This document shows, piece after piece, positions 8,576 to 48,785 of a stretch of 64,000 nt of DNA. The position numbers were made by a program, and so were the translations under genes. This DNA comes from Ascidia mentula (lineage: Eukaryota > Chordata > Ascidiacea > Phlebobranchia > Ascidiidae): positions 17,530,266 to 17,594,265 of the forward strand of contig OX387197.1 in NCBI GenBank assembly GCA_947561715.1. The letters are read 5' to 3'. The notes below the pieces were generated by a model. It was given only the letters and a program-made list of their open reading frames with translations. It was not told where the DNA came from and searched no databases. Each line of letters starts with the position of its first letter. Position 1 is the stretch's first letter.

Positions 8576-11500
8576 ATGTTACGTCGCTTTGCTGGCGAAT
8601 CGGTCGTATCGGTTTTCATTTTACTTTGTTGTCTTTGTGGTAGGTATACGTGTAACTGTTACGTAACAATTGTGATCCAGTATTCTCTCAAAAAGAATAC
8701 AGTATTAGTATTAAAGTAATAAATTGAAGCATTAAGGTTTGTTCCTGTTTGTGTTTCTGCTTCGATGATGTAGTTTATGATAAACTAGCAACTAGTGTCT
8801 GTGCTTGTTTACAGAGGCCCAAAACGTGGACTTGGTGTTTTTGGTGGACAGCACCTCATCGATCTCTAACAATGATTTTCTAACATACAAAGCTGCCTTT
8901 ATGTCCAACGCTGAAAACCTCCCATTGTCCAGTACCTTTCACGCTGCTATTCTTCAATACGGAAACCAGGATGTCAGAAAGTAAGCATCAAGTTGGTAAA
9001 CAGAATTGCCCGCACTTCTTTGTAACAGTGCTATCCCTAAACCAATGCTACTATATAGACTGACTGTAAATGACCACAAAGATACCGTACAAAACTCTAT
9101 CACACTTTGGCTATACAATGCATTTATTCTAGCATCGACTATCATACGGATTCCTTCTATCAATATCCAACAAAACTGGGAAACTGCACCGATGTGACGT
9201 GCTTCAAAACTGCCGTCAACGACAACATGCCCCACCTCCTTGCTGCAAGTACTTTTACCTCTACAGCAATCATGCGAGCTGTTCTGGTGAGTGTGCTTGT
9301 AGAATACGAAGCAGATATAACCGCTTTCAGACAAGGCAGTTTCATTTTTTCCTACATTTTACGTTTGTCCAGCTTTTTGTGCTAAAAAACGGCCCCACTT
9401 ATGAATAAAATGATTCAGACTCTCGTGTCTTAATATTGATGAATTGAAAATTTTATATTGCGAAAAATAAAACCAACGCATGTGCAAACAAGCCATAATA
9501 ATCACTGAGAGCTGCAGACAGGGTGCACAAACGGTTTCGACCTGTAAAGTCCTATCAGTGCAGCTGGTGACCGTGACACATGCTAGCTGGTAGGCTGGCA
9601 GGCACACAGATTTCCACTTTGTGGTACCTTTCGGTCAATCGTCGATATGTTGGGTACTAAACTTTTAACAAAACAACAGTTTGGGATCCATTAGCGCTAT
9701 CGGCTCGGATTGCACTTAACATATCGACGATTGACCGAAAGGTACCACAAAGTTGAAATCTGTGTGCCTGCTAGTCTACCAGCTGGCATGTGTCACGGTT
9801 ACAAGCTGCACTGATGAGACCTCACATGTCGAAACAGTGTATACACCTGTATAGTTGTAAAAATTCTTTTTGTGTTGCATATTTTACGCAGATCGACTTC
9901 GCAGAATCGGCTAATAACGTCAATTCAGATAAGTTCCTAATTGTGACAACTGACGATCCTGCGATTGACAGCAATACTTTAGCTGAAAGGCAAGTATTGT
10001 CGGATACTTTACTTCGAATTTTGGGCAACCTGACACAAACCCGCTAGTACATGGCGCCCTCCTAAGCTGTAAACAGAATTTGTTACAAACCCCACCAGCT
10101 CATGCGGGTACTCCCCCAAAAACGATGGAAACAACGCTATCATCTCAAGATTGTGTCCCAATCTGATAAGTGGCGATAATGTTGGGAAAATATCATCCAT
10201 CAAATGTAACTAATTGCCTAACACCCTGTAACCTTTACACATGTTGTGCAAAATTTATATACTGTTATAATGAACAGAATTATATGCAGTATATATCATT
10301 AACACCAAAGTTCCTTCACGTTTTGGGTTGTGCACCCATAGCCTATGCTCAATGTGGTGGATTTTCAATATTTTTAAAATAACATTAAAAGTTATTCACA
10401 CACGTTTACCAAAATGGGGTATTTTGCATTGCAGTGTTAACCTTACTATCGCTAACAACGTTACCGTGTACACCATTGGCATCGGTCTAAATGTGGACAG
10501 TGCGCAGTTACTGCAAATAGCTGGAGATGCCTCAAGAGTTTCTACAGCGGCATCTTTTTCCGATTTCTCTGCAGAACTGAACGCTACAACTGAGAAAATA
10601 GTAGCCCAAGGTAACTTTCTGCTGAGACTTTTTGTCCGAAATCTGAACGTAGACGTAAAATTGTTGAATCCCTTTTATTTTGTCTATTGAAAAATATTAA
10701 CTTTATGATTTTAATAATTCCCAATAAAAGCTGTAACCACCACGACCATGACACCAACCACAACCACTACTGTGCCTACCACAACCACCATGGCACCAAC
10801 AACCACAACCACTATGGCAACTACAACTACAACCACAACCACCATGGCACCAACCACAACCACCATGGCACCAACCACAACCACCATGGCACCAACAACA
10901 ACGACTACCGTACGAAACACGATGACAACGCCGACAACGCAGACAGCAGTGCAACCAAACACCACTTCAGGTGTGAAATTCCTCCAAAAATTATAAGACC
11001 TGTTTAAACTGAAGTGCTTGTTTACAGAGGCCCAATACGTGGACATCGTGTTTTTGGTGGACAGCACCTCATCCATTACTAACGATGATTTTCTAGCATA
11101 CAAAGCTGCCTTTATATCCAACGCTGAAAACCTCCCATTGTCTAGTACCTTTCACGCTGCTATTCTTCAATACGGAAACCAGGATATCGGAAAGTAAGCA
11201 TTAAGTTGGTAAACAGAATTGCCCGCACTTCGGTAACTTGACATTGGAGTTTGTAACAGTGCTATACCTAAACCAATGCTATATATACTGACTGTAAACA
11301 ACCACAAAGATACCGTACAAAACTGTAGCACGTTTTGGCTTTACAATGCATTTATTTTAGCATCGACTATCGTACGGATTCCTTCTATCAATATCCAACA
11401 AAACTGGGCAACTGCACCGATGTGACTTGTTTCAAAACTGCCGTCAACGACAACATGCCCCACCTTCTTGCTGAAGATACGTTTACCTCGACAGCAATCA

Positions 11501-12847
11501 TGCGAGCTGTTCTGGTGAGTGTGCTTGTAAAATACGAAGCAGATGTAACCAGAGTTTCCTTTTTAGACGGAGAAGTTTAATTTTTTTCGTACATATTACG
11601 TTTGCCCCACGTGTGAATTCATGCTGTTATATCTTAACATTGATAAATTGAAAGTTGTTTTGCAAAAAACATATTCAATATTTTTGGTTGCATATTTTGC
11701 GCAGATTGACTTCGCGGAATCAGTCAATTACGTCAATTCAAATAAGTTCTTAATTGTGATAACTGACGGTCCTGCGAATGACAGCAATACTTTAGCTGAA
11801 AGGCAAGTATTGTCGGATACTTTACATTCGAATTTTGGGCAACCTGACACAAACCGCTAGTACTTGGCGTCGCCCTAAACTGTAAACAGGATTTGTTACA
11901 AGCCTGACCAGCTCATGTACTCCCCCCAAAAATGATGGAAACTCTATCATTTCAAGATTGTGTCCCGAGACTGATAAGTGGTGATAAGGTTGGGAAAATA
12001 TCATCCATCGAATGTAACTAATTGCCTATTTTGCACCATGCAACCTTTACACATGTTGTGCAAAGTTTATATGAAGTTATAATGAACCGAATTATATGCA
12101 GTATATATCATTAACACCAAAGTTCCTTGACTTTGTGAGTTGTGCACCCATAGCCTATGCTTAAATGTGATGGGTTTTCAATATTTTGAAAATAACATTA
12201 AAAGTTATTCACACACGTTTACCAAAATGTGTATTTTCCATTGCAGTGTTAACCTTACCATCGCTAACAACGTTACCGTGTACATCATTGGTGTCGGTCT
12301 AAATGTGGACAGTGCTCAGTTACTGCAAATAGCTGGAGATGCCACAAGAGTTTCTAAAGTGGCTTCTGTTTCCGATTTCTCTGCGTTACTGAAAGCTGCA
12401 ACAGAGAAAATAATAGGTAATTCTGATGAGAATTTTTGTCCGATATCTGAACGTAGACGTAAAATTGTTGAATCCTTTTTAGTTTGTCTGTTGAAAAATA
12501 TTAACTTTATGATTTTGATAATCCCCAATAAACGCTTTAACCACAGCAACCATCATGGCACCAACAACACCGATCACCGTACCAAACGGGATGACCACGC
12601 CGACAACGCAGTCAGCAGGGCAACCAAACACCACTTCAGGTATAGTTTCCCCCAAAATTGTCAGGCCTGCTATTAACTGAAGTGCTACAACACAAAGTAT
12701 ATGAGGATCACGTGAAACATTATTTATTTTCCAGGTGCTCTTCGAATCATTCAGTCCAGCTGGATTTATTTTTGCCTTGCTTACACTGTTCTATCAATAG
12801 TTTTTAACAGCGTATGTAATGCGTGTATATATTGCATTGTTCTGTAA
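8576..12847 (+). CDS. Two-domain vWA surface protein, gene 2
   Basis: Exons: 8576-8639, 8815-8980, 9133-9286, 9892-9989, 10435-10610, 10731-10970, 11028-11193, 11361-11514, 11705-11802, 12247-12416, 12547-12639, 12735-12847. Together they encode 563 residues with no interruption. Order: signal peptide (MLRRFAGESVVSVFILLCC), vWA 1 (about 23-220, VDSTSS, TTDDPAID), an 80-residue Thr-rich stalk with TMAPTTT repeats, vWA 2 (VDSTSS and a more classical VITDGPAND), a short linker ending PNTTSG, then a hydrophobic C-terminus without a charged tail. The latter suggests GPI or a terminal membrane anchor. The exon-intron block of domain 1 is repeated for domain 2, introns included, so the gene grew by internal duplication. 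Both fourth vWA exons end at GC donors. vWA domains usually bind protein ligands through a divalent metal. The ligand is unknown. Confidence 0.88.
9511..9855. mobile_element. Foldback element in intron of gene 2
   Basis: Two arms of about 53 bp (roughly 9598-9650 and 9719-9772) are near-perfect reverse complements around 'ccactttgtggtacctttcg'. Outside them lie weaker inverted flanks containing 'gctgcagaca', 'gtttcgacc' and 'tcagtgcagctgg'. The same outer motifs occur in the array at 51041-52443, so the two belong to one repeat family. The equivalent intron of the second vWA block (11515-11704) lacks it, which shows that it inserted after, or was lost since, the internal duplication. No coding capacity is seen. 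Confidence 0.75.
10731..10970 (+). repeat. Thr-rich coding minisatellite, gene 2 stalk
   Basis: This single exon is built from near-tandem units around 'accatggcaccaaccacaac' that encode TMAPTTTT. It forms a mucin-like, potentially O-glycosylated spacer between the two vWA domains. Long open frames on the opposite strand here (Val-rich or Cys/His-rich) are by-products of the composition. Confidence 0.85.
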
Positions 12848-15321: not shown

Positions 15322-18055
15322 ATGCTGGGCGGCTTTGCTGGACGAGCATCGGTTTTGCTTTTAATTCTGGAATGTAGTTTGTGCGGTGAGTGTACCTGTG
15401 CACTTGACATTTCCTTTTATATGAAATATATTCGAAATATTGACCATATGCGTATGACAAAATTTGGCATGTGTTACGCCAAAGATGACATTATGCCAAG
15501 TGTACGACTACTTTTTTATTGAACTAAGCTTTACCAAGTATAAACGGTTTATCTTACGTAGCTTGTAACCCGCAAATGAAAGTTATGGTTTAGGTTTGAC
15601 CGTAATGGACAACTAAAAATTGGTGACAGATTTTTTCAACAGTTGTCGCAAGTCGTTTGTTATACAGCGTCGTTTAATATATATTTCGCCTACTAAAATC
15701 AACATCAGTATCACTTGGTGGAATGAATAATCGTTTTGAACGAATAAGTCTTGATGGGCATTTGGATTAATGTCGATTAACACTGTGAACGTGTCTACTT
15801 TGCAGCGCAGATCGTGGACATCGTGTTTGTGGTGGACAGCACCTCATCCATTTCTAACGATGATTTTGCAGCATACAAAGCGGCCTTTGCTTCTGCTGCT
15901 GAATTCCTACCCTTGTCCAATAACTTTCACGCTGCTATTCTTCAATATGGAAATCAAAACATTAGAAAGTAAGCATCGTTAAAAAGTGAATCAAAAATTC
16001 GTGTTACAAATGCACCCGAATGGTATTAGCTTTAAAAACATCAATATGCAAATCCCATAGAAGTTCAAGACAACCTTAATTCAGTTATCTTGTACGATAC
16101 CTATAAAGTTTTTAATGCCCAAGCCTGGCATCATGTAAGGAAGCAAACTGACATTGGCGAATCTGGTGTACCAAGCCCATACAACTTATTGGATGTTTTT
16201 ATTTCTATTCCGTTCGTGCGAGGGCACGATTAAGTCGTTCAGCAGTTGTTCAGACTTTAATGCAAAGGTTTGCACTAAATCGATGTATTCTGATTACGTT
16301 CCACCGCAATTGACTAACGTACATTCAATATATATGAATCAAGCAAAATAAACGTATTCACTGAAAATGTTTACTATGTATAATGTAGCATCGACTACCG
16401 CACGGAATCCTTCTATCAGAATCCTACAAAATTGGGAAACTGTACCAATTTAATGTGCATTAAAACTGCCATCAACGACAACATGCCCCACCTTTTTGCG
16501 GCAAGCACGTTTACCGCCACAGCACTCAAACGGGCTGTTCTGGTGAGTGTTGTTTACCAAAACGTATTCAGTCGTAGGGAGCAATTCATGCCAACCTATA
16601 CAATGGTTTCCACTATACGTTACAACTATAGTTTGGTGCTACACAATTATTTAACCGCTTTCTTGTTTAAGATCGATTTTGTTCAATCCGCAAACTTTGG
16701 TAATTCTAAGAAGTTCCTGATTTTGACAACTGATGATCCTGCGATTGACTCTGGAAGTCTAGCTGAAAGGTCAGACGTTTTCTGTGTTCCATTAGTTATG
16801 CTCACCTGAATCTTTTGTCACTAAATTTAGCGGCACCTGTGCGTGGGTGCCAAACCTATTTGCCGTATAGTAGTCGTACAAACTTTTTAGGTTGTTGCCA
16901 AATGAACCACTTGAGAAATATTGATGGCAAAGGCACTCACACTAATAATCCCTTATATGTTCAAAACTGCAATGGCTTGCTTTTCGCAGACTGTGGATCG
17001 CTACCATATTTGGTCAACAATTGATAGTGGGCATCAGTGATATTAAATTTTCGAAAACACCCACTGAAGCCCCTTTTGCAAAGCCGTATGTTTTACTTTC
17101 CAGTGTTAACCTCGCTCTCACCTACAACATCACAGTTTACGCAATTGGCATCGGCCCAAACGCCGACAACGCACAGTTGTTGCAAATAGCTGGAAACGCA
17201 TCGAGAGTTTCCATAGCGCCTTCGTTTTCCCAATTTTCAGAGACCCTGAACGTTACCTTGCAGAAAATTATTGCTCAAGGTAAATCTTCTGTTAAATAAA
17301 ATAAAGATGATACATCTAATAAAGAGTATTTTGTACAAATAAGGTTTATGTGTTTTGGTGATCATTTGTTTTAAATACACCAGTGTGCACGACGACCTTA
17401 CCACAAACCACAACGATCATGGCTGCAGAAACAACGAACAGCATGGCGGAAGACACAACTATCCTGACAACAAATATTACAACCATGGCTTTAGACACCA
17501 CGACCATGTCTACAGATACAACTATCCTGACAACAAATATTACAACCATGCCGTTAGACACCACCACCATGGCTACAGATACAACGACTTTGGCTACAGA
17601 CACGACGACTATGGAAGCAAATACTACGGCCAATGCGACACATACAACGGCAATGGAAACAAATACAAAAACCATGACGACCGAAACAACCACCATGCAA
17701 GCAAATACAAGAAACGTGGCACCAACTGAGACAACCACCACGCCAATAACGAGGACCGCGACAACAAGCAAGTTAACTGAATCGGACAACCCTACCGACC
17801 GAACCAAAACAGTGGATGCAACACCAACCTACACTAATTCAATGGCAGTTGGTAAAACAAATAGTGCAACTGACCCGCTTACAACCACTTCAGGTAGTTT
17901 ATTGCTCGTTCAGTTTTCACATCACTTCAAGTTGATATAAACATTTTGTTAGGGCAGCTCAATATTTATTTTTGTTTTATACAGGTGCCGTGGGGCTCGT
18001 GGGGCCCAACTGGGTTCATCTGGTCAGCGCTCTTGCTGCTATCTTTCTACAATAA
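15322..18055 (+). CDS. vWA surface protein with long Thr-rich stalk, gene 3
   Basis: Exons: 15322-15385, 15806-15968, 16389-16542, 16672-16769, 17104-17279, 17384-17893, 17985-18055, totalling 411 residues. The first exon is a signal peptide (MLGGFAGRASVLLLILECSL). The vWA domain (about 22-218) has VDSTSS, CTNLMCIKTA and LTTDDPAID. The 510-nt exon encodes a 170-residue stalk rich in Thr, Met, Asp and Asn, with a 63-bp internal repeat. The last exon gives SGAVGLVGPNWVH and then a hydrophobic end with no tail, a good match to a GPI signal with a small-residue cleavage site. Unlike its paralogues, exon 4 has a GT donor (gtcaga). A polyadenylation signal follows at 18163. Start chosen by homology with the signal exons of genes 2 and 4. 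Confidence 0.9.
17384..17893 (+). repeat. 63-bp coding repeat in gene 3 stalk
   Basis: The exon contains at least two copies, 63 bp apart, of a segment reading 'actatcctgacaacaaatat' and onward (near 17459 and 17522), followed by shorter units of ACA/ACC/ATG codons. Stalk length is likely to vary between alleles because such repeats slip easily. Confidence 0.8.
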
Positions 18056-19490
18056 TGAATACATTTTATGCATCATGGTTCATTGTTTGTGACGTTTGTG
18101 TATTGTAAATGTATGCTATATGTAGTCCTATTCGGCTTCGAACCTTTTTTCATATGCCTTAAAATAAATATTGACACCTTACTCGCAGTCAAACGACAGT
18201 TTAATAGAAGGCCAAAAACTGAGAATTTTCACTGATGTGTTTTATGTCAATTTTTATGAATCTATTATTGTTACTGCCAAGTATTTGCTGCTCTCTACAA
18301 AAATTAGTTTCCCAGCTGTGTGATCTTGCCCCTTTTTTAAATGACCATATGATATTTTGTCAAACGTCAACGTCCGATCATTACTGGCCAAAGTTAGGAT
18401 TGGATTTGTTCCTTATCATGTGACGCGTTATGCTTGGAGCAAAGTTGCATATAGCTTGACTAAGAACAGATAGCATGTACGTATATGACACTTAGTGCTT
18501 TTTTACTTGTATATATTTCATTTTTTTCATTCTGCTTGGTAAGTATTGGCTTTAACTGATAATAAAAGATCGCCTTGCTGCAATTTCTAAGCACAGTTCC
18601 GCACTTGTAATCGAACGTTTTACAGTGATTAGTTGATATTTTGCGACCACCCCCTTTTTTGGCTGGAGTTAATTTCTGGCCTGAAATAATGCAGTCAAGT
18701 GTGCCAGGTCTATCTTTCGGCTTGTACAGTTTGATAATTTTGTAACCGGAACAGATACGAAACATGTTTTACTGTTTCATAATCAGTGTGCAATACGTCA
18801 GAATGTAATGATTCAATAATTGGAGACGAGCCTAGACATTCAAAAAACAATACCTTCATAAAACAAAAACTAAATAGTCAGCTTCCCTGGAAATTCGTCT
18901 CAATGATGCTAGCGCAATGAGTCTTAAATGAAGGTCGGCTGACCTGTTTGCTAGTTGCCACTGAATTATCTGTTCGCCTGTGCTCTCGGCTGAGATGCGG
19001 GCAGGCAGAATAATCCAAATTATAGTTTATTGTTCGAAATCAAAATTAGTCTTGTTCAAAGTAGAATCGAATCATAGAATGGAATAGAATAAAATCGAAT
19101 AGAATGGAATAGAATGGTCAGAAAGGCGAAAGCGTTACCGTATAAACTGGAAGTCACGTGACGTGCGATATTGTGAGAGAAAGGCAGTGTTTTCGTAAAT
19201 ATCATGTGGATAAGTCTCTGGGGCATTATTTAAGATAAAGTGTCCCTGTCAAACAAAAACTTCCCCAATGATGGAACACTGGAAAAGGTTCTTATCAAAA
19301 CAGCTTCCAGCTGCGCCGTTGTCCAACATGCGACTTTGTAATGCAATTGCGGGCACATTCTCACTCTCTCAAAACAGTTTCTCACACATCAAAGGCGGTT
19401 TACGTCACACGACCACAATTCCAAACGAATGACGCTGCAAAGTACTCATAATTTTATTACTGACGTCAAAAGTTATGAAGTGCAACGCTA
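18056..19490. other. Intergenic; holds a duplicated flank and a GAATA repeat
   Basis: About 18460-18830 recurs in the same orientation at about 34800-35120, downstream of the gene 3 fragment, so it is the 3' flank of the gene 3 locus. At about 19061-19117 there is a degenerate pentamer repeat of the 'gaata/gaatg' type. No exon is recognised, and the receptor copy that follows lacks its first two exons here. Confidence 0.6.
18163..18168 (+). promoter_or_regulatory. Polyadenylation signal of gene 3
   Basis: AATAAA lies 108 bases after the stop codon of gene 3, a usual spacing for a metazoan 3' UTR. Confidence 0.55.
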
Positions 19491-19593
19491 AGCTATCGGC
19501 TCATAATCAATATACTTATACTGACTGTAAACGACCACAAAGATACCGTACAAAACTGTAGCACATTTTGGCTATACGATACATTTATTTTAG

Positions 19594-22500
19594 CATCAAT
19601 TACCGTACGGATTCCTTCTATCAATATCCAACAAAACTGGGTGACTGCACCGATGTGACGTGTTTCAAAACTGCCGTCAACGACAACATGCCCCACCTTC
19701 TTGCTTCGAGCACGTTTACCTCAACAGCAATCAAGCGAGCTGTTCTGGTGAGTGTGCTTGTACAATACGAAGCAAATGTAACCAGAGTTCCGTTTTTCGA
19801 CGAGGCAGTTTAATTTTTTTCGTACATTTTACGTTTGCCCCACATGTGAATTCATGCTGTCATATTTTAACATTGATAAATTAAAAGTTGTTTTGCAAAA
19901 AACATATTCAATATTTTTTATTGCATATTTTACGCAGATTGACTTCGCGGAATCGGTGAATTACGCCAATTCAAATAAGTTCTTTTTTGTGACAACTGAC
20001 TATCCTGCGATTGACAGCAATACTTTAGCTGCAAGGCAAGTATTATAGGATGCTTTACATTCGAATTTTGGGCAACCTGACACAAACCTTCTAGTACTTG
20101 GCGTCGCCCTAAGCTGTCCCACCAGCTCATGTACTCCCCCCAAAAAAATTGAAACAACTCTATCGTTTCAAGATTGTGTCCCGAAACTGATAAGTGGTGA
20201 TAACGTTGGGAAAATTTCATGCATCGAATGTGACTAATTGCCTTTTTTGCACCCTGCACCCATACACATGTTGTGCAAAATTTATATACAGTCATAATGA
20301 ACCCAATTATATGCAGTATATATCATTAACACCAAAGTTCCTTGACTTTTTGAGTTGTGCACCCATAGCCTATGCTTAATGTGGTGGGTTTTCAATTTTT
20401 GAAAATACAATTGAAAGTTAATCACACACGTTTACCAAAATGGGGTATATTGCATTGCAGTGTTAACCTTACTATCGCTAATAACGTTACCGTGTACATC
20501 ATTGGCATTGGTCCAAATGTGGACAATGCTCAGTTACTGCAAATAGCTGGAGATGCCTCAAGAGTTTCTACAGCGGCTTCTTTTTCCGATGAACGCTACA
20601 ACTGAGAAAGTAGTAGCCGAAGGTAATTTTGATGAGAATTTTTGTCCGATATCTGATCGTAGTTTCCCCCGAAATTGTCTGTCCTGTTTATTCGCTGCTT
20701 TTTTTGTTTGTCTTTCAATTTCTTCCGATGTTTGTAAATCTTTCAAACAATCTTCAAATCTCTCAAAAATATTGTGTGACGTAGCAACATGTGAAACTAC
20801 GGGAGATCCCCAGTACGGAGTGACGACACTGCGTTGCCCTGCCAACTGCAGAGGCCAGGCACTCTGTGGCTCCGGACCATACGACAGCTCATCCTCTATC
20901 TGTGTGGCCGCCATTCACGCTGGCATCATCACAAGTACGTTTGTGACGTAATAATTATATTTATAATATGATATATTGTGACGAAAATCATCTGTCTGTT
21001 CGAATCGCAAAATACGTCATTTGAATCAAAATAGAAACTCATAAAATATTTTATTGCAATTTCACGCCCTTGTTTAAAAATCACGGCTGGATTGTCTTCA
21101 ATTCCCGGAATATTTCGAGTTGTGATTGACGCTACCGCTCTAACACTGCATGCACTGACTTATCGTCCGCCAACTGCACCTTGCAGTTCTTCAAAATTTC
21201 CTTCTTAAATTTCACAAAACCTGGTCAGGAATAATAGATTGTTTCTGGTACGACGAAACGCTCCAATGAGTTTCGTCAAAGAAAAGTGGTTCCATCATAT
21301 TTTTTATCAACAAGGTTTCATTAAACAGGTAAAAACCTGGTGAGTCATTTTGTTTTTTTTGTCGAGGTTGTTTCTGGAATTAAATCCAAGCCCAGTGGTT
21401 TTAATTTTCAAAGCACCTGTCACTCAAACCTAGTGTTGCCATCTGATATTCCCTGACCGATAACGACCTTAAAATATACCAAAGGTTTTAGGGCGCCTTT
21501 GGTATATCTCTATAAGAATTATGTTGCAATCATCAAATGTCACCAAATATATTTCACGGTAGGAATAAACTGTGGTTGATACGCTGAAAAAAACTGAATG
21601 ATAGCCAGGTGGACAAATAAGCTGACTTTATTCGGAACAATAGCTTCAATGAAAAAAACTATAGCAATTAAATGAACTATGGCAACACCTTTCCAAAAAC
21701 GTTTATTACAGCTTTCGCTCTTTAAACTTTACAATGAATGAATCAAGCGCATTCTCGGTTTCGCATAAAACAAACAAACTAACTTGGAATTTTAAATGCT
21801 TCGTTTGCACAAAAGAAAAGCCGTCGAAGGCCGCATTGATGATTCAATCCCCGATATTCAAGCACTTTTGTACCGATTTTGCCGACGCGCTTTAACACTA
21901 AAATCACAGACAGATCTAAACCAATCCCAAAACGTCATAAACTATGTAATTTGAGGAAGCTCCTGGATTCTGCGGGATTGCAGGAATCCGAGGAATAATT
22001 GAGGTACTAACCGTGTTTTCCAGACGAAGGAGGGAATGTTCGAATCATCAGAAGACCGGGTCAATCTTCTTATGCAGGTTCTACACAGAACGGTGTAACA
22101 TCTCAAAACTGCACTACGCAACCAACAACTTCGTTCATCTTCAACAATTCCCTACCAAGTAATATTACGTAAATATTAAGTATCAAAGTGATTAAAATGA
22201 ATGTGGGGTGTATTTCCCTGAAGAATTTATGACGTTTAAGTTGGTGTAGGTTGCTCCTCACATGGAGGCAACACTGGAGATCACCATTTAAGCGAAAGTA
22301 GGGATTATGGCGTAATAAGTAGGGGTTATGGGTTCGGTTGCTTCTGGTGATGGGACAAGAAGGTTTTTCGCCCAATCAACAATCCTTTGGCCGATACCTT
22401 GTCGGTTGTTTGGGGTTAATTTATTTTATGACGTTAGTGATCACCAAGGCAACGTTAACACAACAAACTTCATCAAAGCCAAGCATTGCACGCTTTAACC

Positions 22501-25215
22501 CAACCCCACATAAACTAAACTATTAAATTAACGATCGGATCGCAACCTATTGCAGAATAATCAATCGTGGACAATCCGAGCATTCTCTCACCTCATTGCC
22601 CATGTGACATCACAAAGGACGCGTTTCCGGCGAGGCTAAGAAGCGATTAGGTTTATTTAAACTGACTTTTGCGATGGTAAAACGTCAACCAATCCGATCC
22701 ACTCAAAAACACATCTAACCACAGTAAACACTTATTAGTTATGCCTGAATTGTTCGCGCGTCACGTGATATTACGTCATACTAATCACCCTGTACACAAG
22801 CAATCAACACTGATTACTGCAGTTGTGACACGGGCTACAAAGTTTTTGAAACACATCAGAAGCTCAAAGCATTTCCCCTCAAAAAAATCTCAGATATTTT
22901 TCCAAACAAATGTTTGACAAACTTTTGTTCCATTGCAGATATCTGGGATTGCGCCCCAAATCTGTGCCAGAATGGAGGGACTTGAGGAGTTTTGGTGAAC
23001 GATTATAATTGCTCCTGCATCTTCGGTTACGATGGAAAGAACTGCTCAAATTGTAAGAAGTGAAAATGTTTGAAAAAATTTGAGGCTTTTTTGTATTTTA
23101 ATGGCGACGTCACGTGTTTCAGTTTAGCCAATCCGAGCGATTGTTTGTGATGAAGACGTAACAATTAGTTCGTCTTAAAATCTTGTTGTCAAAGAAACGT
23201 TGGTAATGCAACCGTGTATTGAAGCAGTCAATAACGTTACGTGAGAGTTACTTCATGGTGATGCTTTTGAGCGCAAGGTGACGAATCTGGTCTTCGTCCC
23301 CAGATATCGGACAATGTTACAACAAACCTTGTCAGTATGGAGGAACCTGCGTTAACGGAACTGCAACAACCTATGCGTGCAACTGCATGCCTGGATACGA
23401 TGGAATCGACTGTGGAAATGGTAAAAAACTGGTTCCCTGTTTGTAATCCACGTAGGACGTGGTGTTATGATTCGAGTTGTCACCAAATTGAAGTTGTGAC
23501 TTTGTCATAGTTTTACCAAATCGCAACAAAACGAACTGTAATATACGGTGTCACATAACTATGCCTTGGGACTCACAACAAAGTGTGTAACTACAATCAT
23601 CCCAGTTGTTACCAAACCTGAAGGTCGCAGGTCGAACCCCGGACAGGGATAACATGATGTATAATGTTCAGAAATCAAGAAGTGCTCCTCCAATCCCTGC
23701 ACGAACGGTGGAACTTGCAACGAATTCGTGAACTTCTACAACTGCTCTTGTCCGGTCGGGTTTGGTGGGCCGACTTGCGCCAAAAGTAAGTCCTGTTATG
23801 CGAGTTGCTTTATCGCTGAACCTGAATGCCTCGGTTATATATAAAGTTGTATATAAAACACACACATATATATAACTTATATTGAATGGTGACATCAACA
23901 AACTGCACCTCCCGCAGTTTTCTGAAACAAACCCGACATTGGGACAAATTTATCGCGTGACGTCATCTAAGTCATACCATTGTTGTCTACGTAATATTTA
24001 CTGACCTTAGAATACTTTCCTAGTTAATATTCCAGAATGCATCGTTGGGTAATAAATGTTTTAGGTTTAAAGATAACGACAAAGACTCGTTGCTTTTATT
24101 AGCCCAAGTCATTAAACCTGAGCCCTCAAGTCCAAGAACACGTGAAAATTTGCTGCCTTGTTTTCGTATGTACTGCCTCTAGTGGTAGTCGGTGTGACAG
24201 CAGGGGTAACCTTGTTTCACTTTGATCCTCTACAACCTAAAATAGGTAATTATATAACAGTTCCCATTTAATTAACAGGGATGAATGCCCATTTTTACGT
24301 CACACACGTGTTTGCAAGGCAACCTCTGTTCCAATCCACGTACAGAGCTCGCAATATGTGTTGGCTTCAGACTCTCTCCTTCAGATATTCCTTCATAATC
24401 CCTGTCGGGATACTCGCTATAGCGAACTTTCTCTTCTGCTCATCCATCATAGTCCACCTCACCTGCAAGCGGGGAGCGGTGAGATCACGTGACAACGTTG
24501 CTATAGTGACACCGAACCTTTTCTTTCTAAATAGTGGTTTAACTTTTTGTGCACAACGAGTAGAGAAAAAAATACAATAAACATTACGTCACCACCATTG
24601 ACGTCATATTATGAATGCAGATCCAGTCTTCTGCCGCCAAACGCACAACGACTCATGACATGATTGTTGCCGTGACACTCGTTGTCATGCTGGGTGTCAC
24701 GTGGTTGTTCGGCTTCCTCATGTTGGCAGCTGACAATAAGATTTACCTGGAATTCACCTCGTGGATCTTCTGCATCTTCAATGTCTTCCAGGTGATTCCC
24801 CTAATTAGGTGTGGGCGCATTACAGGATGCAGAGTAGGGACTTTTCCAACGTGTTTTAACAAGGGGAACGAAGAGACCAATCAAAAAAGTGGGTATCAAA
24901 ATATTGAGTATAAAAATATTGAGTATAACAATATTAAGCATAACAATATTGAGTATAAAGATATTGAATATCAAAATATTGAGTATAAAGATATTGAGTA
25001 TAGAGGTAGATATTGATCCGCTGTAATCACTTTCCCACCAGGGTTTTCTGATTTTCATCCTAAACTGTGCGAGACAAGACAACGTCAGAGCTCTCTGGCT
25101 GCACCCAATGGTGAGAAGTATGACGTGTGGAAATTATTACGCATCTAAACCAACAACATCCACAAAATCCACCTCTGCTTCTAACATCTCTCAAGTCAAC
25201 TGGTCGAAGATTTGA
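19594..25215 (+). pseudogene. Adhesion-GPCR-like receptor, left-arm copy (vWA-LCCL-EGF-TM5-7), broken
   Basis: Readable exons with matching phases: vWA exons 19594-19747, 19938-20035, 20461-20622; LCCL 20784-20934 and 22024-22158; EGF 22939-23052, 23304-23420, 23672-23785; TM exons about 24279-24478, 24621-24791; C-tail 25042-25215. LCCL shows CETTGDPQYG, RCPANC and SICVAAIHAGI. The TM exons read CWLQ, SFIIPVGILAIANF (TM5), VVMLGVTWLFGFL (TM6) and FTSWIFCIFNVFQ then GFLIFILNC (TM7), as in class B2 receptors. Faults: no signal peptide or first vWA exon; a 14-nt deletion in the last vWA exon shifts the frame; EGF 1 has TGA at 22983 where its conserved third Cys should be; the GAIN domain and TM1-4 are absent. 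Part of the 3' half could still belong to an expressed transcript. Confidence 0.8.
24894..25003 (+). repeat. 15-bp minisatellite in a receptor intron
   Basis: At least seven units of the form 'tataa(a/c)(a/g)atattgag' lie in tandem between the TM6-7 exon and the C-tail exon. If the intron were retained, the frame would stay open and add an IEYK/N/D repeat. The good GFLIFILNC exon downstream makes normal splicing far more likely. Confidence 0.8.
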
Positions 25216-27317
25216 ATCAGAAACATTTTCCACCCAAACCCCATGACAATTATCCATGGAAATAAGTCACGACCCACCAGAATCCAATACATTTGTGTTT
25301 TGCATTCCCAAACAATCTAATAGTAAAGTCTTTGTAATCAACCTCCCGTGCCCCATTAGCTTGGTGCATACCCCAATTTGAGAAACACTGACTAAGCGAC
25401 TCACTCGCGCCATCTCGCGGGCAATTTTTTTGTGGTAAATATTAAGTATTTCAGAAAGCAATGCCTGTCATTTAAAACATTCTTTGTAGAAATTAATATT
25501 TTTTTAATTAGATTGTGTTCAGATTGTATCAGCTCGGGTGTTTAAAACATTTCAGTTTGGTGATAAAGATTCAGTCTTGATGATATCTTGTACATAGAAA
25601 CTGATTTTTGTCTTGTTTTGTTTTGGATGAAATTTTGGTGTGAAAGACGAGATATAATATTGTGTTGTGTTTGGGAATCTAAATTCACTGTTGTGGCGCC
25701 TCAACTTTTGATTTTTTGACAGAAAAAACTTTCCATTGTTAGCATGTATATATTTCATCATTTTGTTTCTGACAAGTTTTGTCGCAAATTTATTCTGGAT
25801 AAGTTTAGGCTGAAAGAAACTTCATAACTTCGCACAATTTAACCGTGGTAGATGTTTGTTTTCAATGCACTTTATGCGCACCAACAAATTCTGTAAATAA
25901 AACTAGTCATCCATCATGATTTCATCATCTTCAAATAAAGCAGAGAACCTTTGTCGACGGTGTGAACTCTGTTGACCCCAATTTCTGATTGATCCAAAAT
26001 TGAAATCCGATTTAAACAGCAAAAGTCGGGACAAAACTCTGATTGTCCGGACTAAGATCGCCGATGCTTTCCAAAGTCTCAGGTTTTCTCCGCAGATCGA
26101 ATCAATTCTGTTTTTGTTTCTTCAATAAGTTTCGTTTCATGAAAGAAGGCAATTAACGACAAATCTCATTCGCTCGGCTTACAAAATCCCATTGTTTCAC
26201 CTCACGACGTCACAACGGTGTATTGTTACGTATCCATTGGTCGGGATGTTGCAATCACGTATTTTGCAAATTTGTTTGTGCGAAGCCGATTTCGACGCAA
26301 AAACAAAATTGTTTAATATTGGGACCCCAAGGTCATCATTTGTACCCGTTGAGAATTCAAGGTGATCATAGCACTTGTTCCAGTCGAGTTAACAACGGAT
26401 CGACGGTAAAAAATGGAACTTTAAATTCAGCAAGATTTCTTAACTGGGGGTCTGGGGACCCTAAAGGGACAGTATCCTATCAGGGGGTTCACAGTGACGT
26501 ATCTAGAGGCTCTTCAGTGACGTAACTGGAGGCTCATCAATGACGTAACTAGAGGCTCCTCAGTAACGTATCTAGAGGCTCCTCAGTGACGTATCCAGGG
26601 GGTTCCACAGGACTTTCCAAACCCTTATAGTTTTAGTGATGAGGTTCATTTAGGGACATCCCCAAATAAATGTTTTCTAAATTGTAACGGGTAAATGGGG
26701 GTCAACAGAGTTCACACAGTCGACAAAGGTTCCCTGCTTTATTTGAAGATGATGAAATCATGATGCATCACTTGTTTTATTTACAGAATTTATTGGTGCG
26801 CATGAAGTGCATTGAAAACAAACATCTACCACGGTTAAATTGTGCGAAGTTATGAAGTTTCTTTCAAACTTATCCAGAATAAATTTGCGACAAAACTTAT
26901 CAGAAACACAATGATGAAATATATACATGTTAACAATGGAAAGTTTTTCTGTCAAAAAATCGAAACTTGAGGCGCCACAACAGTGAATTAAGAATCCCAA
27001 ACACAACACAATAATATATCTCGTCTTTCACTCCAAAATTTTATCAAAAGAAAACAAGACAGAAATCAGTCCTATATACAACGGATTGCCTTCACAAAAT
27101 AAAGTACAAGGGTTAAGGGTTCGAATCCCCGAGCGAGTGGGTTGGTAAACAAGTGAAATGTTATGCGGGAGTATAATCTGCTGCTGTATTTGTTTTTACT
27201 AACATGAATGTTGATGTTTAGTGGCCCAGGTTTTTGATACTTATACTGATTGATAACAACAATTATCGTGGAAAATTTAATGACGTCATAAGTTGTGACA
27301 TCGGTACATCACCATAG
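25216..27317. other. Centre of the inverted duplication
   Basis: This stretch holds the 3' flanks of both receptor copies (matching arms 25590-25981 and 26697-27085) and the unpaired spacer. No exon is seen in the spacer. The GAIN exon of the right copy ends at about 27318. Confidence 0.7.
26492..26606. repeat. 23-bp minisatellite at the palindrome centre
   Basis: Five tandem units of about 23 bp, each like 'cagtgacgtatctagaggct' plus three bases, lie in the spacer between the arms. Most units contain TGACGTAA or TGACGTAT. Confidence 0.85.
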
Positions 27318-30300
27318 TTATTCGTCCCGCCAACGATGAAGCGTTCGGATTGTTGAAAGCATGATTTCGATCGCCTTCTGTGTGTCGCTATCCGAGATTA
27401 GAGCTGATGACGTGTTCTGTCCCGATGTCGCCACAATCGCCAATAGTGATAGTGACGTTTCGACGACCTTAGTTGTCACAGTTGACGGATCCATGACGTT
27501 TATCTGCAGGGGTAACAAGGTCAGATAAAGGGGAATCCCCCGACAAGTTTTTTTGCCCAACTTCTGATGTAAATGCAACAAATGGTTTCGTTGCAAAGCG
27601 CGTTTAAACCGCTCCGTGACATTATAATAAGCTATACTTACACCGGATATGACGTCAGTGGTGGTGCTGGTGCAAGGGACCGACACAATGTTGGTGAAAT
27701 TTGCAGTAAGTTTTCCAGTGTCCTTCCCAATAGCACACGAGGCGGAAGCAATCTCCCGACCTGCCAACATTTAACCGAATTTACTACTACCGCTAGATGA
27801 CGCAGCGCAACAGAAAAGAAGGAACATGTTCGTGGTTGATTGAAAGGTGGGCGTTAATAGGTGTAGTATCTACTAGGCACTGGACTTTTCGATCGAGTAA
27901 AACATTGGATCCGATTGAAGTTTCTGGGAAAGTGATATTTGTTCCTTTCAACGCAGGACATCTCACTGTGACGTAAAAACGAACTGTTGTTTGCTTTATT
28001 ATGAGTAAGAAGTTCAATAATTAAACAATTCTTTTAACAAATTTTCGCTCAGTTTGTCAATAATTGGCTGATGTTTGAGTAAATTCGTTTGTTGTCACCA
28101 CAAATTAATGTTTAATAAGTTGAAAATTACCACCTCTGCACGCAATAGCGTTTTTTTACAGAAGTGCGTTTTTTCCTGTTCATTAAATTTGTGTATTGAT
28201 ATGTATTGAAAATGAGCTTGAACAGTTTGCGAAAACAACTCGTGATCTCGTGATAGAACTCATGATCAACGACTTACGATCACATGACGTTGGAATTCCG
28301 GTAAGTGGCGTAGCAGAGTAACCCGGTTTGCATTTACAACTTCCAGTTTGGGAATCGCACACTCCGTTAGGTAAACACGTGACCGCGTGGCAATTTCCTA
28401 AAGCTGTTGATGGAAATGTTGAACTTACTGAAAGCAACTGGAAGTTTTCCATACATAGGACATTAACGTACAACGTTTCATAACCATGATTATCGAGTTG
28501 TTTAAGTTTCTTCTACGTTTTAAATATAAAATCCTAAAAGTGGTAAAAAAAGGTTATGTTTGATGAGGCAGCATTTCTTAACAATCTCGCAGGTAGTTCC
28601 GTTGTAACCCGGCAAACACAGGCAGTTAAACGCGAACACAAGATCTTGACAGGAGCCCCCATTTAAGCACGGATGCGATGCGCCCTCGTCCTTCGCTGTG
28701 TTAAATAATATTGAAAACGTTTGTACGAAAACCTGAAAATATTTATTGAAGATATTTATGGCGTTAGTCGTTTTGTTGGAGATGAATTGTCGTTCGTGAT
28801 AACTCGTTTTATTTCTCAGGTTGAGGTCCACGCAGTTTGTTATTAAAATTCGCTAAAAGTAATCTTGTCACCACCAAACAATATCTAAACCAATATTTTG
28901 GAACCTCTGTATGACAAAAAACTTGTGCTTTGTACATTCTTATATTAAAAACGAACAAACTTATGCAAACAATTCATATGAGAACGTAGAACAGCGTCTT
29001 TTGTCGCTGCAAATTATTGTTTTGCATTCACTGTTCTTTTAATTTATTTTTTGTTGCCACGACAACTGCAGACAGTTGGTAAAATAACTTCTTGTTGGCG
29101 CGTTTGAAATTTGTGAGGGTTCAGGTTTGATGATCGGGGCTAATAAAGGCAACGACTCTTTGTCGTTATCTTTAAACCTAAAACATTTATTACCCAACGA
29201 TGCATTCTGGAATATTAACTAGGAAAGTATTCTGAGGTCGGTGATTATGACGCAGACAACAATGGGATGACTTAGACGTCACGCGATTTATTTGGATTTG
29301 GTTGACGTTTTACCATCTTAAAAAAGAGGATAATAAGTAAAGCTAATTGCTTCCCAGCCTCGCCGGAAACGCGCCCTCTGTGATGTCACAAGGGCAATGA
29401 GGTGATAGAATGCTCGGATTGTCCACGATTGATTATTCTGCATTAGGTTGCGATCCGATCGTTAATTTGATAGTTTAGTTTATGTGAGGTTGGGTTAAAG
29501 CGGGCAATGCTTGGCTTAGATTAAGTTTGTTGTGTTAACGTTGCCTTGATGATCACCAACGTCATAAAATAAATTAATCCCAAACAACCGACAAGGTATC
29601 GGCCAAAGGATTGTTGGTTGGGCGAAAAACCTTCTTGTCCCATTACCAGAAGCAACCGAACCCATAACCCCTACTTATTACGCCATAATCCCTACTGGAG
29701 TAGCGATAATTTATGTGAACGTTTCTTGGTCTTTCGCTTAATGGTGATCTCCAGTGTTGCCACCATGTGAGAAGCAACCTACACAACTTTAAACGTCATA
29801 ATTTCTTCTGAGAAAATACACCCCACATTCATTTTAATCACCTTGATACTTACAGCATACGTAATATTTAATGACGTCATACTTGGCAGGGAATTGTTGA
29901 AGATGAACGGAGTTGTTGTTTGCGTAGTGCAGCTTTGAGATGTTACACCGTTCTGTGTAGAACCTGCATAAGTAGATTGACCCGGTCTTCTAATGATCCG
30001 AACATTCCCTCCTTCGTCTGAAAAACACGGTTAGTACCTCAATTATTCCTCGGATTCCTGCAATCTTGCAGACTGGTAAAATCGGTACAAAAGTGCTTGA
30101 ATATCGGGGATTGAATTAAGTCTCAGCAATGCGGCCTTCGACGGATTTCCTTTCGTGCACACAGAGCATTTCAAAATTCCAAGTTAAGTTGTTTGTTTTA
30201 TGCGGAACCGAGAATGCGCATGTTTCATTGATTGTAAAGTTTGAAGAAAGCTGTAATAACCTTTGCAGTAACTGCGCTCCGTCCACATTTGGACCGACAC

Positions 30301-30583
30301 CAATAACACGGAATGGTTGCCACCAAGGTTAACACTGCAATGCAAAATACCCCATTTTGGTAAACGTGTGTGAATAACTTTTAATGTTTTTCAAAATTAT
30401 TTTCAAATATTAAATACCCACCACAGTAAGCATAGGCTATGGTTGCACAACTCAAAACGTGAAGGAACTTTGGTGTTAATGATATATACTGCATATAATT
30501 GGGTTCATTATAACTGTATATAAATTTTGCACAACATGTGTAAAGGTTGCTGGGTGCAAAAATGGGTAATTAGTTACATTCAA

Positions 30584-31027
30584 GGTTCACAGGCTTCGCA
30601 GCCAAGGCATTGCAGCCAAGCTGGATCAGCCACTTTTCCTGGCATTACTTCTGCGTTGTCTGATTACGGTGGTGGAGATCCTCTACGCATGTGAAGGTCG
30701 CCTGACAAGTTGTGCGCTTGCGCACCAGTGTACCTTGGCCACAATATACCCCGTGAAGCCACTGAGCTCCGGTAGCTCAGTTGGTAGAGCGTTGGGCCTG
30801 GTTAGCCCAGGGTCGTGAGTTCAAACCTCACCGGGAGCTTGATTTTTCAGGTCTCGCTCCGACTTGTCGGGAAAAGTGGTTGATCCAGCTTGGCTCCAAT
30901 GCTTTGACTGCGAAGCTAGTGAACCTTATGATCAGAATATTAGAGCTGTGATCGCCAAATATAAAGGGCCTGCGCAGTGGGGCGATCCCGCCTTGCTATG
31001 CGTAAGCATGGCATTACTTCTGCGTAT
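30584..31027. mobile_element. Small inserted element carrying a tRNA-like sequence
   Basis: Identical 10-bp direct repeats (ttacattcaa, 30574-30583 and 31028-31037) flank 444 bp that interrupt a receptor intron otherwise alignable to the left arm. Within it, about 30584-30640 and 30867-30925 are inverted repeats (ggttcac, aagctggatca), and a tRNA-like segment lies between them. The word 'ggcattacttctgcg' occurs near both 30640 and 31010. No coding sequence is seen. It may be a SINE nested in a MITE, or a composite element. Confidence 0.7.
30766..30838 (+). tRNA. tRNA-like sequence (anticodon GGT, Thr if genuine)
   Basis: The 73-nt segment has acceptor halves gctccgg/cgggagc (one mismatch), D arm gctc/gagc, anticodon stem tgggc/gccca with loop ctggtta, and T arm gtgag/ctcac with loop ttcaaac. 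Pol III A and B boxes (tagctcagttgg, gttcaaacc) are intact. An extra base between D and anticodon stems and its position inside a small inserted element suggest a SINE head or tRNA pseudogene, not a functional tRNA gene. Confidence 0.45.
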
Positions 31028-31704
31028 TTACATTCAATTGATGATATTTTCCCAACGTTATCACCACGTATCACAAAATCTAAAAATGATAGCGTTATTT
31101 CAATCTTTTTTTTGGAAGTACACAAGGTGATGGGGTTTGTAAGAAATCCTGTTTACAGCTTGGGCGGCGCCAAGTGCTAGCTGGTTTGTATCATGTTGCC
31201 CAAATGCAAAGCATCCGACAATACTGGCCTTTCAACTAAAGTATTGCTGTCAATCGCAGGATCGTCAGTTGTCACAATTAAGAACTTATTTGAACTGACG
31301 TTATTGGCGCGCATGATTGCTGTCGTGGTAAAAGTACTTGCAGCAAAAAGGTGGGGCATGTTGTCGTTAACGGCAGTTTCGATACAAGTCACATCTGTGC
31401 AGTTGCCCAGTTTTGTTGGATATTAATAGATAGAATCCGTACGATAGTCGATGCTAAGTCAGTATAAATAGTCTAGCACTGTTACAGACTCCAATGCCAA
31501 GGAACAGAAGTGCGGGCAATTCTGTTTACCCACTTTGTTCTTACTTTCTGACGTCCTGGTTTTCGTATTGAAGAATAGCAGCGTGAAAGGTACTGGACAA
31601 TGGGAGGTTTTCAGCGTTGGACATAAAGGCAGCTTTGTATGTTGGAAAACCATCGTTAGAAATCGATGAGGTGCTGTCCACCAAAAAGTCCACGTTTTGG
31701 GTCT

Positions 31705-32819
31705 CTGTAAACAAGCACATACACTAGTTGTTACTTTATCATAAACTACATTAGTGAAACAGGAACACAAACAGGAACATACCTAATACATCAATTTAAT
31801 ACTTTATTAATAATACAATAATTATTTTTGAATTTCACAAAGCGATCTGTGGACAGCTCAGATGAATTTTTATGAGACAAACATGATTCGCCTAAAAAGG
31901 CAGTTTCTGCTTTTAAAGCTGTTGAATTGACTAAGGGAAAACTTCGAAAACGGAATCTAAAAACAGAAAGGGGCAGGTACCTGATTGTCCAGTGCAAAAA
32001 AAAGTCTAGTTTAAATCTGCCAACAAACATTTTAAACACAACTATCCAATATGTCTTAGTACAGTTGGTATTCCTACGTTTACTTCTAAGTTATCGCTTT
32101 TGTCCTATTCTTCCTGCTATCCTTGTCCCACCATCGTCATTTCGGCGAAATGGAAATAAGTTAAAACCGAATTTATTTCACGCATGACTGAACGCGACTT
32201 CAAAGTATTGTGTTCACAAAAATTATACATTAACTCGACACAAAAACAAATAATGAATTGTAATAACAAACATTTTAATCAGCAAAGCCTCCAATACTTT
32301 TAAAACAATATTTACCTATAAAGTATATCGCAACGAAATGGGGTTTGACCGTGGTCACGCTGTGTGAATCCCAGGATGAGCATTGTTTGTCAAAGCGTAG
32401 ACAGCGAGGATTTGCGGCGATGCGTACAAGGGCCGATATATTCCCTGGCAGCTTTTGAAAACAATGAAATTTTCGACCCCTTAACCTTCTTATGTTAATA
32501 AAAAATACCTTTTAGTATTACAGCCGCCACTAATTTGTTCATTTTATGCCAAAACAACACACGAGATTTAATAGGGCAGTATTCACAAAAAAAGGAAAAA
32601 TTGTTTTCGGAAAGTAATTTCGCAGATCTGGTACTGTACTGGTCAAGCCCATAACAGGTGGTAAATCGAAACACATAGCAACTATTGCTCTGTTTCAAAA
32701 CCTGCGGGAAGGGATATCAACAAGTTTTTCGCAAAACAATTTGTTTGATCGGTTCACAGCGGCATTTTTGTTTGTATGCGTACCCCTAAGTTTGTTTACT
32801 TCTTGTCTCCAGTCTAATG
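31705..32819. other. Outer end of the right arm and unassigned sequence
   Basis: On the - strand, about 32160-31900 resembles the leader of gene 2 (about 8340-8570), including 'cgttttcgaagtttt'. The place of the signal-peptide exon is occupied by unrelated sequence. From about 32200 to 32819 I recognise nothing. Confidence 0.55.
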
Positions 32820-40203: not shown

Positions 40204-40577
40204 ATGACTAACGACGTCGATGGGGTGTGACTGAGAAAACAACGTTAACCTTTCAATCGTGTTTCGGGGTAAACGTTTTTCTGTTGAAAAAAGACTACTC
40301 TAGAGTTGCCGGCTAGACTATGACGTTGTCGAAGAAAAAGGTAGCGTCGGGAGACTAAAGGTCTAGGATTACAGCAGTTGGATCGTGAGTTTAGTATTCA
40401 GGGAGTCAATTGCTTTAGTAATTATGTGCTGTGATTGGGAAAAGCGCTAGTCAAAAGCAAGTACTGTATCGAAGCACAGTGCAACATTTTGTTGTTCTTA
40501 GTCCGTGATTTTGTACTTTGTTAAGGTTCTGTAGGAATTATATCAATATTTTGAGCACAACAGAACATACCATCGAC

Positions 40578-42537
40578 ATGCAGCGACTTCTCATAGCGGT
40601 TTCTTTGGTTCAGGTGCTATTTCAGTTTGCTGGTAAGTACAGTTATAAGATTCGAGTTGCAGAACATAACAAAATTGAGTGAGTCGAAAGTGTAACCTAA
40701 ATAATATTGATATATATATATATATATATTTATGTAAGTAACTTTGAAATCTTGTTGACTATACCAAAAATATTTTTATTTTGTTTTCTAGTGTCATCAG
40801 ATGTTCACCTCAGTAAGTATTTGTTGCATGTTATATACTTGAACGTCACTTGCACTTCTGTACTGCATAATAGTATTTCAAATAGGATAAACATGTTTAC
40901 GAAATGTGCAACTTTAAATCAACCCAGAACTTACCTGGGCTTATTCTCGAAACGTATAATGGTGCTTATTGCCAAACAGGACAACACACATAAACCACAT
41001 ACTCAATAATATTTAAACTAAGTTGCAGACACAACCAAATATCGCTATATTAAGACGCATATATGTCCAGGTGCGTGACCTTTGATGGTTGTGTCATATT
41101 CGCAGATAGCCAGGCAATAACATGCACATTGTTGTAACCCGCTTGGATAAAAAAAAAACAAGTACAAAACTTAGGAGACATACCTAGGTGAAACACAAAT
41201 GCTAAACAGCTGCCTAAAAACCATAAGTGCCGCCAAGTTCTGTGACACGAACAGCGTGTTTTCCTTTCAGCAATAAAGCCAATATTCTGAAATTATCTGC
41301 AAACACTGCTTCGCCTATTCGGTCTCGTAGGTGAAGCGTGTCTGGTAACGAACAATATATCTTTGAAACAGTTTGTAGATGTGTCCCCGAAATACGCATG
41401 TTAATTACTCCAACACAGATATTTCAGCAAACGCAACGGGAAGTCCTCTACCGGATAATTCAACTTCTGATTTACCTCCATCCACAACAGGAAGAACCCA
41501 CATTAACACAACCTCCTCAACAGGAACACCATTCAGTACGTCCAGATCATGTGTACAATAAAAATCAGCCAAGTACAATAAATATCAGTTATGCGGTAAT
41601 AATGTCGTTCATTTGAAAATTTTTTTTTTGCTGAGCAAATTTAAACAGAAAAAGTTTATTTGAGTATTTTTTGTCACAGCAAGCCCTTTTACCACAACTT
41701 TACCACCCTTTCCAACTAATTCAACTACTGGCCCAGGTAAGTTTCTTATTCCATTTCGAAATGCAATTGCCGGATAATAGGCGCGAGGTAGATTACTGCA
41801 AAGCAGTGGTCCCCAACTTTTGCGACGCACGCAAAAAGTATTGACGTTCAGTGATGTTATATTATAATGCCAGAGTAGTAACAAATATTTCCAATGCTTC
41901 GCAATTTGGGATCTTCTGCTCCATAGGTAAGATATATAAGAATTTACCGAATAGTGTACATATCACAAAACGATTTATTACATAAATAAATAATTTGTTA
42001 GCAGTGCGGCGCTACTATCTTTACGTTTATCGTATTTATCAGTTATACCGTGTGGCCACATGTGTATCCCGGGCATAATTTCAATTTACATCGATTTTGT
42101 GAAAGTTTTCGGACTTCTGTGAATTATCAATTAAATTACATTAAATTCCAGGTGTGTGCACCAGAGAGCAAGCCGAATACCTTTTCCGCACCCAGAAATG
42201 GCACAACGCCTTGTTGGAATGGCAATCTTCCCTTCACAGTTGGTCTACATGTCCGACCCGAGGTTGCCCTGAGATCCATCGACTCCCGGTGCACATCAAC
42301 TACCTACAACGTCTGGCTACCTGGGTATCTTATTTCGAGGGCTGGTTGTGCGACTACAGAGCATGGATGAACACTGAGCAACGATTTACCGCCAAAGGCT
42401 GCCCCATGCTTGTGCGACGCAAGTACTTCGATCTTTTGTCCTTGTGGAGAGGCAAAGTGATGTTTTATAAGGATGCGTATTACTCGTGGATTAAAGTAGA
42501 ATGTGGCGGGGGCCACGGTACTAATTGGAATGGCTAA
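40578..42537 (+). CDS. Secreted Ser/Thr-rich protein with six-Cys domain (A1)
   Basis: Exons: 40578-40632, 40792-40812, 41419-41535, 41680-41736, 42152-42537; 211 residues. All internal junctions are phase 1 with good GT-AG sites. Signal peptide MQRLLIAVSLVQVLFQFA; then a Ser/Thr/Pro-rich stretch with N-glycosylation sequons (NATG, NSTS, NTTS, NSTTG); then a 129-residue domain beginning VCTREQAEYLFRTQKWHN with six Cys and many Trp and Tyr (STCPTRGC, GWLCDYRAW, KGCPM, VECGGG). I do not recognise this domain. No membrane segment follows, so the product should be secreted or mucus/matrix-bound. The copy-2 gene has exactly the same coding length, which supports the model. An AT dinucleotide run lies in intron 1. 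Confidence 0.82.
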
Positions 42538-48770: not shown

Positions 48771-48785
48771 AATCAGTCTTATTCG

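Follow-up and report, generated by a model that had tools for sequence, protein, structure and literature searches.

Two described systems come closest to the locus reported here: the adhesion G-protein-coupled receptors (GPCRs), with their secretin-like seven-transmembrane (7TM) domain (PF00002, 7tm_2), and the known kind of locus in which pseudogenes left by duplication within a gene cluster are accompanied by inverted junctions. The stretch analysed, called the window, comprises 64 kb of the Ascidia mentula genome (GCA_947561715.1; 195.8 Mb in 79 contigs), at positions 17530266-17594265 of contig OX387197.1 (here C1); coordinates without a contig name are counted within it. We propose that the two inverted arms of receptor-like sequence at about 19.5-32.1 kb very probably derive from an adhesion-type GPCR gene that was duplicated in inverted, tail-to-tail orientation and then decayed, amid locally clustered vWA exon units.

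The kinship with adhesion GPCRs is visible in two relatives of the pair, an uninterrupted gene on contig C71 and a second copy on C1, both of which match 7tm_2; every solved sequence that they match belongs to an adhesion receptor, the best being G6, G2 and E5. The window arms differ from such receptors in that neither holds a complete seven-helix domain: the left arm keeps transmembrane helices (TM) 4-7 with a nonsense codon, the right arm keeps none, and Pfam finds no 7tm_2 match in either. With the duplicated pseudogenes of clusters the pair shares incomplete copies with nonsense codons and splice-site losses, junctions at which few bases are shared, and an uninterrupted relative at another place; it differs in that the inverted junction is present at two sites. 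A literature search combining 'adhesion GPCR' and 'LCCL', in these spellings, returned nothing.

Results

Comparison of the window with itself revealed seven inverted blocks that relate 19.59-25.98 kb to 31.46-26.69 kb at 74-92% identity (blastn), with scores far above chance (174-957 bits, E 1.3e-43 to 0). From the outside inwards, they pair left 19590-19740 with right 31457-31307, 19959-20231 with 31305-31030, 20226-20543 with 30581-30262, 21703-21883 with 30259-30075, 21969-22692 with 30072-29298, 23945-24128 with 29294-29114 (an intron block, 90%) and 25588-25984 with 27081-26693 (92.4%), the last being the arms of a palindrome around a centre of 708 nt. A preliminary description had claimed a tail-to-tail duplication with inverted matches in the last vWA exons, LCCL exon 2, introns and 3' flank, and these blocks bear it out. 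The arms stand in opposite orientation and the junction leads to unlike sequence, as in an inverted segmental duplication. The window contains no N, nor do the 16.5 kb and 18 kb around the two relatives.

Queries of left-arm (22.6-25.6 and 20.6-22.7 kb) and right-arm (27.1-29.3 kb) DNA all match C71, where pieces of both arms follow one another in a single row on one strand (C71:148.97-159.64 kb). The row consists of LCCL (148.97-150.5 kb), EGF (151.0-152.5 kb), the exons matching the right arm (152.4-154.8 kb), a stretch absent from both arms (154.8-156.76 kb), TM4-7 (156.76-157.5 kb), the C-tail and 3' flank (to 158.47 kb), and finally, ending at 159.64 kb, one palindrome-arm copy with the bulk of the central sequence. 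The search for an intact gene elsewhere in the genome, as the preliminary description had advised, thus yielded an uninterrupted relative, to which the receptor parts and flanks of the C1 copies are 83-92.5% identical. Its joined exons up to TM5 match PF00002 with E 5.6e-24 (85.2 bits, cut-off 20.6), and all 22 solved sequences matched by its GAIN-7TM part are adhesion GPCRs, some of them aligning from query residue 113 or 185, ahead of TM1.

Eighteen receptor exons were modelled (LCCL1-2, EGF1-6, HRM, G1, GAINa, GAINc, GAINb, GPS, TM1, TM2-3, TM4-5 and TM6-7), and all are stop-free in C71. Pfam recognises only LCCL, EGF-type and 7tm_2 domains in this relative, and no GAIN or GPS match at E 0.01; HRM, GAIN and GPS are labels that we assume from position. 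An automatic exon chain agreed at both ends for LCCL1, HRM, GAINc, GAINb, GPS, TM1, TM2-3 and TM4-5, and at one end for EGF5 and EGF6. LCCL2, EGF1-4, G1, GAINa and TM6-7 were placed by hand from splice-site lists, the chain having missed or mis-framed them, with TM6-7 at or beyond its limit. With the TM5 exon closed at 157125, four candidate starts of TM6-7 all fail to join in frame; an end at 157115 is phase-compatible and was adopted. Since the AG/GT ends of the C71 exons were selected, they provide no test of the model.

On the forward strand, the left arm begins with the later vWA exons and their introns (19517-20662; 87.8% identity to a tandem unit at 11284-12456). The first vWA exon, which in that unit sits before 11284, gave no match near 19517-20662 and was not found on the left. 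There follow, with their flanks, LCCL exon 1 (20767-20959), open with intact AG/GT, and LCCL exon 2 (22005-22161), EGF3 (23279-23445) and EGF4 (23647-23809), all three open with intact splice sites. Between LCCL exon 2 and EGF3 lie a remnant of the EGF1 exon (22790-22839, 50 of 108 nt) and EGF2 with flank (22919-23077), the latter carrying an in-frame TGA at 22983. The intron block common to both arms (23945-24128) ends at the deletion junction at ~24127. This deletion spans EGF5 into TM4, and ten of the modelled exons, EGF5 to TM2-3, are absent. Beyond it, the truncated TM4, TM5 and TM6-7 (24127-24874) are 97.5% identical to the 7TM copy of the second C1 locus; the TM4 exon has lost its first 11 nt with the splice acceptor and contains a TGA at 24143, and TM5 and TM6-7 are stop-free. 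The C-tail and 3' flank (24880-25590) open with 15-bp tandem repeats (24880-25001). LCCL exon 1 and the C-tail are thus in this arm as previously described; instead of TM5-7 it keeps TM4-7 with TM4 damaged, and instead of EGF 1-3 it keeps three whole EGF exons and the one remnant. With two in-frame TGA codons, a damaged EGF exon and the EGF5-to-TM4 deletion, the left arm is, on its sequence, a pseudogene. The ratio of non-synonymous to synonymous substitution rates (dN/dS) of its exons against C71 is 0.49 (0.26 for the GAINc-TM7 part); since its split from the second-locus 7TM copy, it has gained 3 silent changes, 2 replacements and 1 stop, too few to judge selection.

The right arm, on the reverse strand, reaches ~32126 with the first vWA exon and the 5' flank, which match 8352-9019 in inverted orientation (blastn). 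Its vWA exons, introns and 5' flank occupy 30262-32126 (pieces 30262-30581, 31025-31306, 31307-31457 and 31474-31831; 5' flank 31907-32126), followed by LCCL exon 2 with flank (29859-30036), the common intron block (29114-29294, blastn) and GAINa, G1, the HRM-like exon, EGF6 and EGF5 (27283-28720). The first vWA exon, two further EGF-like exons (EGF5 and EGF6), the HRM-like exon and the start of GAIN (GAINa) had all been assigned to this arm beforehand and were found there, the HRM and GAIN labels being position-based. LCCL2, EGF6 and G1 are open. The EGF5 donor has changed from GT to TT, the HRM-like exon has lost its donor and has a 1-nt indel, and GAINa has gaps of -4 and -3. Eleven of the 18 modelled exons are absent, in addition to GAINc, of which 6 of 106 nt are left. 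This arm is a fragment, truncated at its 3' end, in which splice donors are lost and indels have accumulated; the dN/dS of its exons against C71 is 0.50.

At the centre, the left 3' arm of the palindrome (25588-25984, forward strand) and the right 3' arm (26693-27081, reverse strand) enclose 708 nt (25985-26692, reverse strand) that represent 3' flank of the right copy only. This central sequence is mostly found downstream of the single C71 gene, in right-copy orientation. At approximately 27083-27084 (reverse strand) lies the right-arm deletion junction, which joins the GAIN region to the 3' flank with all TM exons gone. The junction alignments contain few shared bases at most, a feature of end joining or template switching.

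The inverted junction recurs at a second locus, C1:17838571-17846667, located 283 kb from the window pair, reversed, with equal tail-to-tail order and different neighbours. Its minus strand carries vWA exons, EGF6 and HRM-like, GAIN-like and TM exons; the sequence then jumps from the window equivalent of 25153 to that of 25978, and from there crosses the central sequence and the right 3' arm into the right-arm GAIN-HRM piece, as far as window position 27856. The left-copy 3' flank (window 25154-25977) is consequently missing there, and CCAA borders both ends of the missing piece. Window and second locus have an identical GAIN-to-flank junction, their centre breakpoints agree within ~4 nt in the alignment, and at the far end of the centre they depart from C71-like sequence at one place, with CCAATTTCTGATTG in both against GAAGTTTCTGATTG in C71. 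The right arm is 97.9% (3' arm) and 97.8% (centre) identical to the second-locus fragment, compared with 94.4% between the left and right 3' arms. Both right-side pieces lack the same ~131-nt stretch, and these shared deletions are found neither in C71 nor in the second-locus 7TM copy. Among informative sites of the HRM-GAIN region, 14 unite the right arm with the second-locus fragment, while the two alternative pairings have 3 and 2. Overall identities discriminate weakly, so the order of events rests chiefly on the shared deletions and on these 14:3:2 sites, which indicate that the inverted pair probably formed before it came to stand at two sites.

The 7TM copy of the second locus has no stop in 652 codons as modelled, and its dN/dS against C71 is 0.36 overall and 0.32 over GAINc-TM7; it does not clearly appear to be a working gene. 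A TAA that it shares with the left arm (17841231 and 24269, respectively) was considered as an old nonsense mutation and rejected as disabling, because several paralogues carry an intron about there and, in C71, GT...AG bounds a stretch of 72 nt that stays in frame.

According to the preliminary description, the parts missing on one side are mostly present on the other. Seven of the 18 modelled exons are in the left arm only (one being the EGF1 remnant), five in the right arm only, one in both (LCCL exon 2) and five in neither (GAINc, its 6 nt on the right being counted as missing, GAINb, GPS, TM1 and TM2-3). The claim holds insofar as 12 exons are confined to one arm, and fails insofar as complementarity is just half: the right arm supplies 5 of the 10 exons missing on the left, and the left arm 7 of the 12 missing on the right. 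When equal-size blocks were placed at random 20,000 times, 16% of the placements had an overlap of at most one exon, as did 7 of the 18 circular shifts (counting the observed arrangement), both tests being rough. With a pattern that is not rare under random placement, complementary loss was rejected as a sign of function, and there is no reason to see in it more than two sets of deletions.

A 53-residue query of the first vWA exon gave at least 21 matches in the genome; all 21 listed lie on C1, seven in the window and two at the 17.84 Mb locus. This clustering places the pair inside a local array of vWA units. On the forward strand, at 3110-38156, vWA exon units occur at ~3.1, 8.8, 11.0, 15.8, 34.0 and 36.6 kb, two of them followed by repeats with a 21-bp period (10735-10929 and 17409-17710); 17362-17940 is threonine-rich in one frame. 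Further along, a direct duplication of ~10.8 kb (40204-51042 and 53323-63978; 93.8-95.2% identity, copies ~13 kb apart) may reflect either tandem duplication or haplotypes that were left unmerged. In six frames, 40200-50002 matches a single Pfam family at E 0.001, DUF294. The interval between the large copies (51038-52454) contains 3.6 copies of a 285-bp tandem unit (51418-52454, 99% matches) and a self-inverted match of 92-99%.

Several features of the C71 region were also recorded. It represents an adhesion-type GPCR gene (C71:147984-158151) with LCCL and six modelled EGF exons, and an extra LCCL exon 1 lies upstream at ~147984. A Cys-rich, GPS-like stretch, CLCNKVGSLSL, was spotted by eye; the usual GPS cleavage motif is HL-T, and the stretch has no such motif. 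A putative 72-nt intron without in-frame stop (C71:156883-156954) falls in extracellular loop 2, where several paralogues seem to have longer introns. In a genome search with one TM6-7 peptide, at least 101 matches were obtained, many in tight arrays on C69, C71, C73, C67 and C2.

Discussion

The inverted pair on C1 consists of a copy with 7TM exons and a copy deleted from the GAIN region to the C-tail; at the junction, the 3' flank of the former meets the distal end of the latter's 3' flank. The simplest history would begin with a single such pair. This pair, its right side already truncated, may then have been duplicated as a unit, after which the 7TM copy of the window would have lost the stretch from EGF5 into TM4 and gained two nonsense codons. 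Low-homology end joining or template switching could have produced the deletions. Presumably neither window arm makes a receptor, and the survival of C71, perhaps together with the second C1 copy, may have relaxed selection. Retained introns, disabling changes and an uninterrupted relative are those of an unprocessed pseudogene, and decay after duplication, one of two origins considered beforehand, agrees with the disabling changes in both arms and with the C71 gene.

A number of observations weigh against this proposal or its details. The gene models are partial, omitting exons upstream of LCCL1, the HRM-G1 and GAINa-GAINc intervals and the C-tail. No stop codon occurs in 236 compared codons of the right arm, so its decay rests on truncation, splice-site loss and indels only. 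The dN/dS below 1 in the retained exons of both arms probably reflects the time before decay, and some residual use is possible. The vWA exons of the two arms are 86.6% alike, against 92.6% for the LCCL2 region, and this higher divergence means that exchange inside the vWA array complicates the history; as regards the ancestral 5' end, no vWA match was found in C71:144.0-160.5 kb. The CCAA at the second-locus junction may derive from either side. HRM-GAIN identity between the right arm and the second-locus fragment (94.3%) is barely above that between the right arm and the 7TM copy (93.1%), the left 3' arm is 95.2% identical to the second-locus arm, and in the 3' arm alone the grouping sites number 3 against 1 and 1. 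At the second locus itself, vWA exon 1 contains a TGA, one hand-set donor is AT, LCCL and EGF1-5 were looked for and not found, and the TAA of the 7TM copy would be disabling unless the 72-nt stretch in the loop is truly an intron.

The preliminary description also considered that the assembler had joined two haplotype fragments of one gene. The nearby direct duplication at 94-95% identity (40.2-51.0 and 53.3-64.0 kb) makes unmerged haplotypes conceivable; yet an inverted junction with the same right-side deletions exists at C1:17.840 Mb among other neighbours, which argues against such an artefact, and neither place contains an N. The left and right 3' arms moreover differ by 5.6%, against 2.1-2.5% between the window and the second locus (right 3' arm, centre and left TM4-7), although HRM-GAIN differs by 5.7% between the loci. 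We therefore regard an assembly artefact as very unlikely. It could alternatively be hypothesised that the arms are working half-genes that divide the ancestral domains between them, as the 12 exons present in one arm only and the dN/dS of ~0.5 would allow. Such subfunctionalisation is extremely improbable, since the left arm has two nonsense codons and lacks an acceptor, the right arm has indels and has lost donors, five exons (TM1-3 among them) are missing from both, and chance readily yields so small an overlap.

A further hypothesis is that read-through of the centre yields double-stranded RNA, and that small RNAs cut from it target the copies on C71 and at the second C1 locus. The stretch 25588-27081 is predicted to fold as a single long hairpin with a minimum free energy of -765.7 kcal/mol (without shuffle control at this length), and the 3' arms are 83-98% identical to the C71 and second-locus relatives. 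Any inverted repeat folds likewise, however; the paired part is 3' flank and not a modelled exon, and the left palindrome arm is absent from the second locus, which makes an expressed hairpin highly improbable. It is scarcely credible that the pair has been retained because transcription of its centre gives a long hairpin RNA, with small RNAs from it damping the C71 and 17.84 Mb receptors; if true, a broken gene pair would be a regulator of its own family.

The preferred reading is a well-resolved and ordinary instance of inverted duplication followed by decay within a receptor/vWA cluster. Gene predictors may call chimeric receptors at the window pair, and the C71 gene, with LCCL and EGF ahead of an adhesion-type 7TM domain, is probably the more useful object of study. 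Judging by the TM6-7 peptide matches, the genome appears to carry a large adhesion-receptor repertoire. The pair would offer a clear example of how a receptor cluster grows and decays, by inverted duplication, truncation, establishment of the pair at two sites and further loss.

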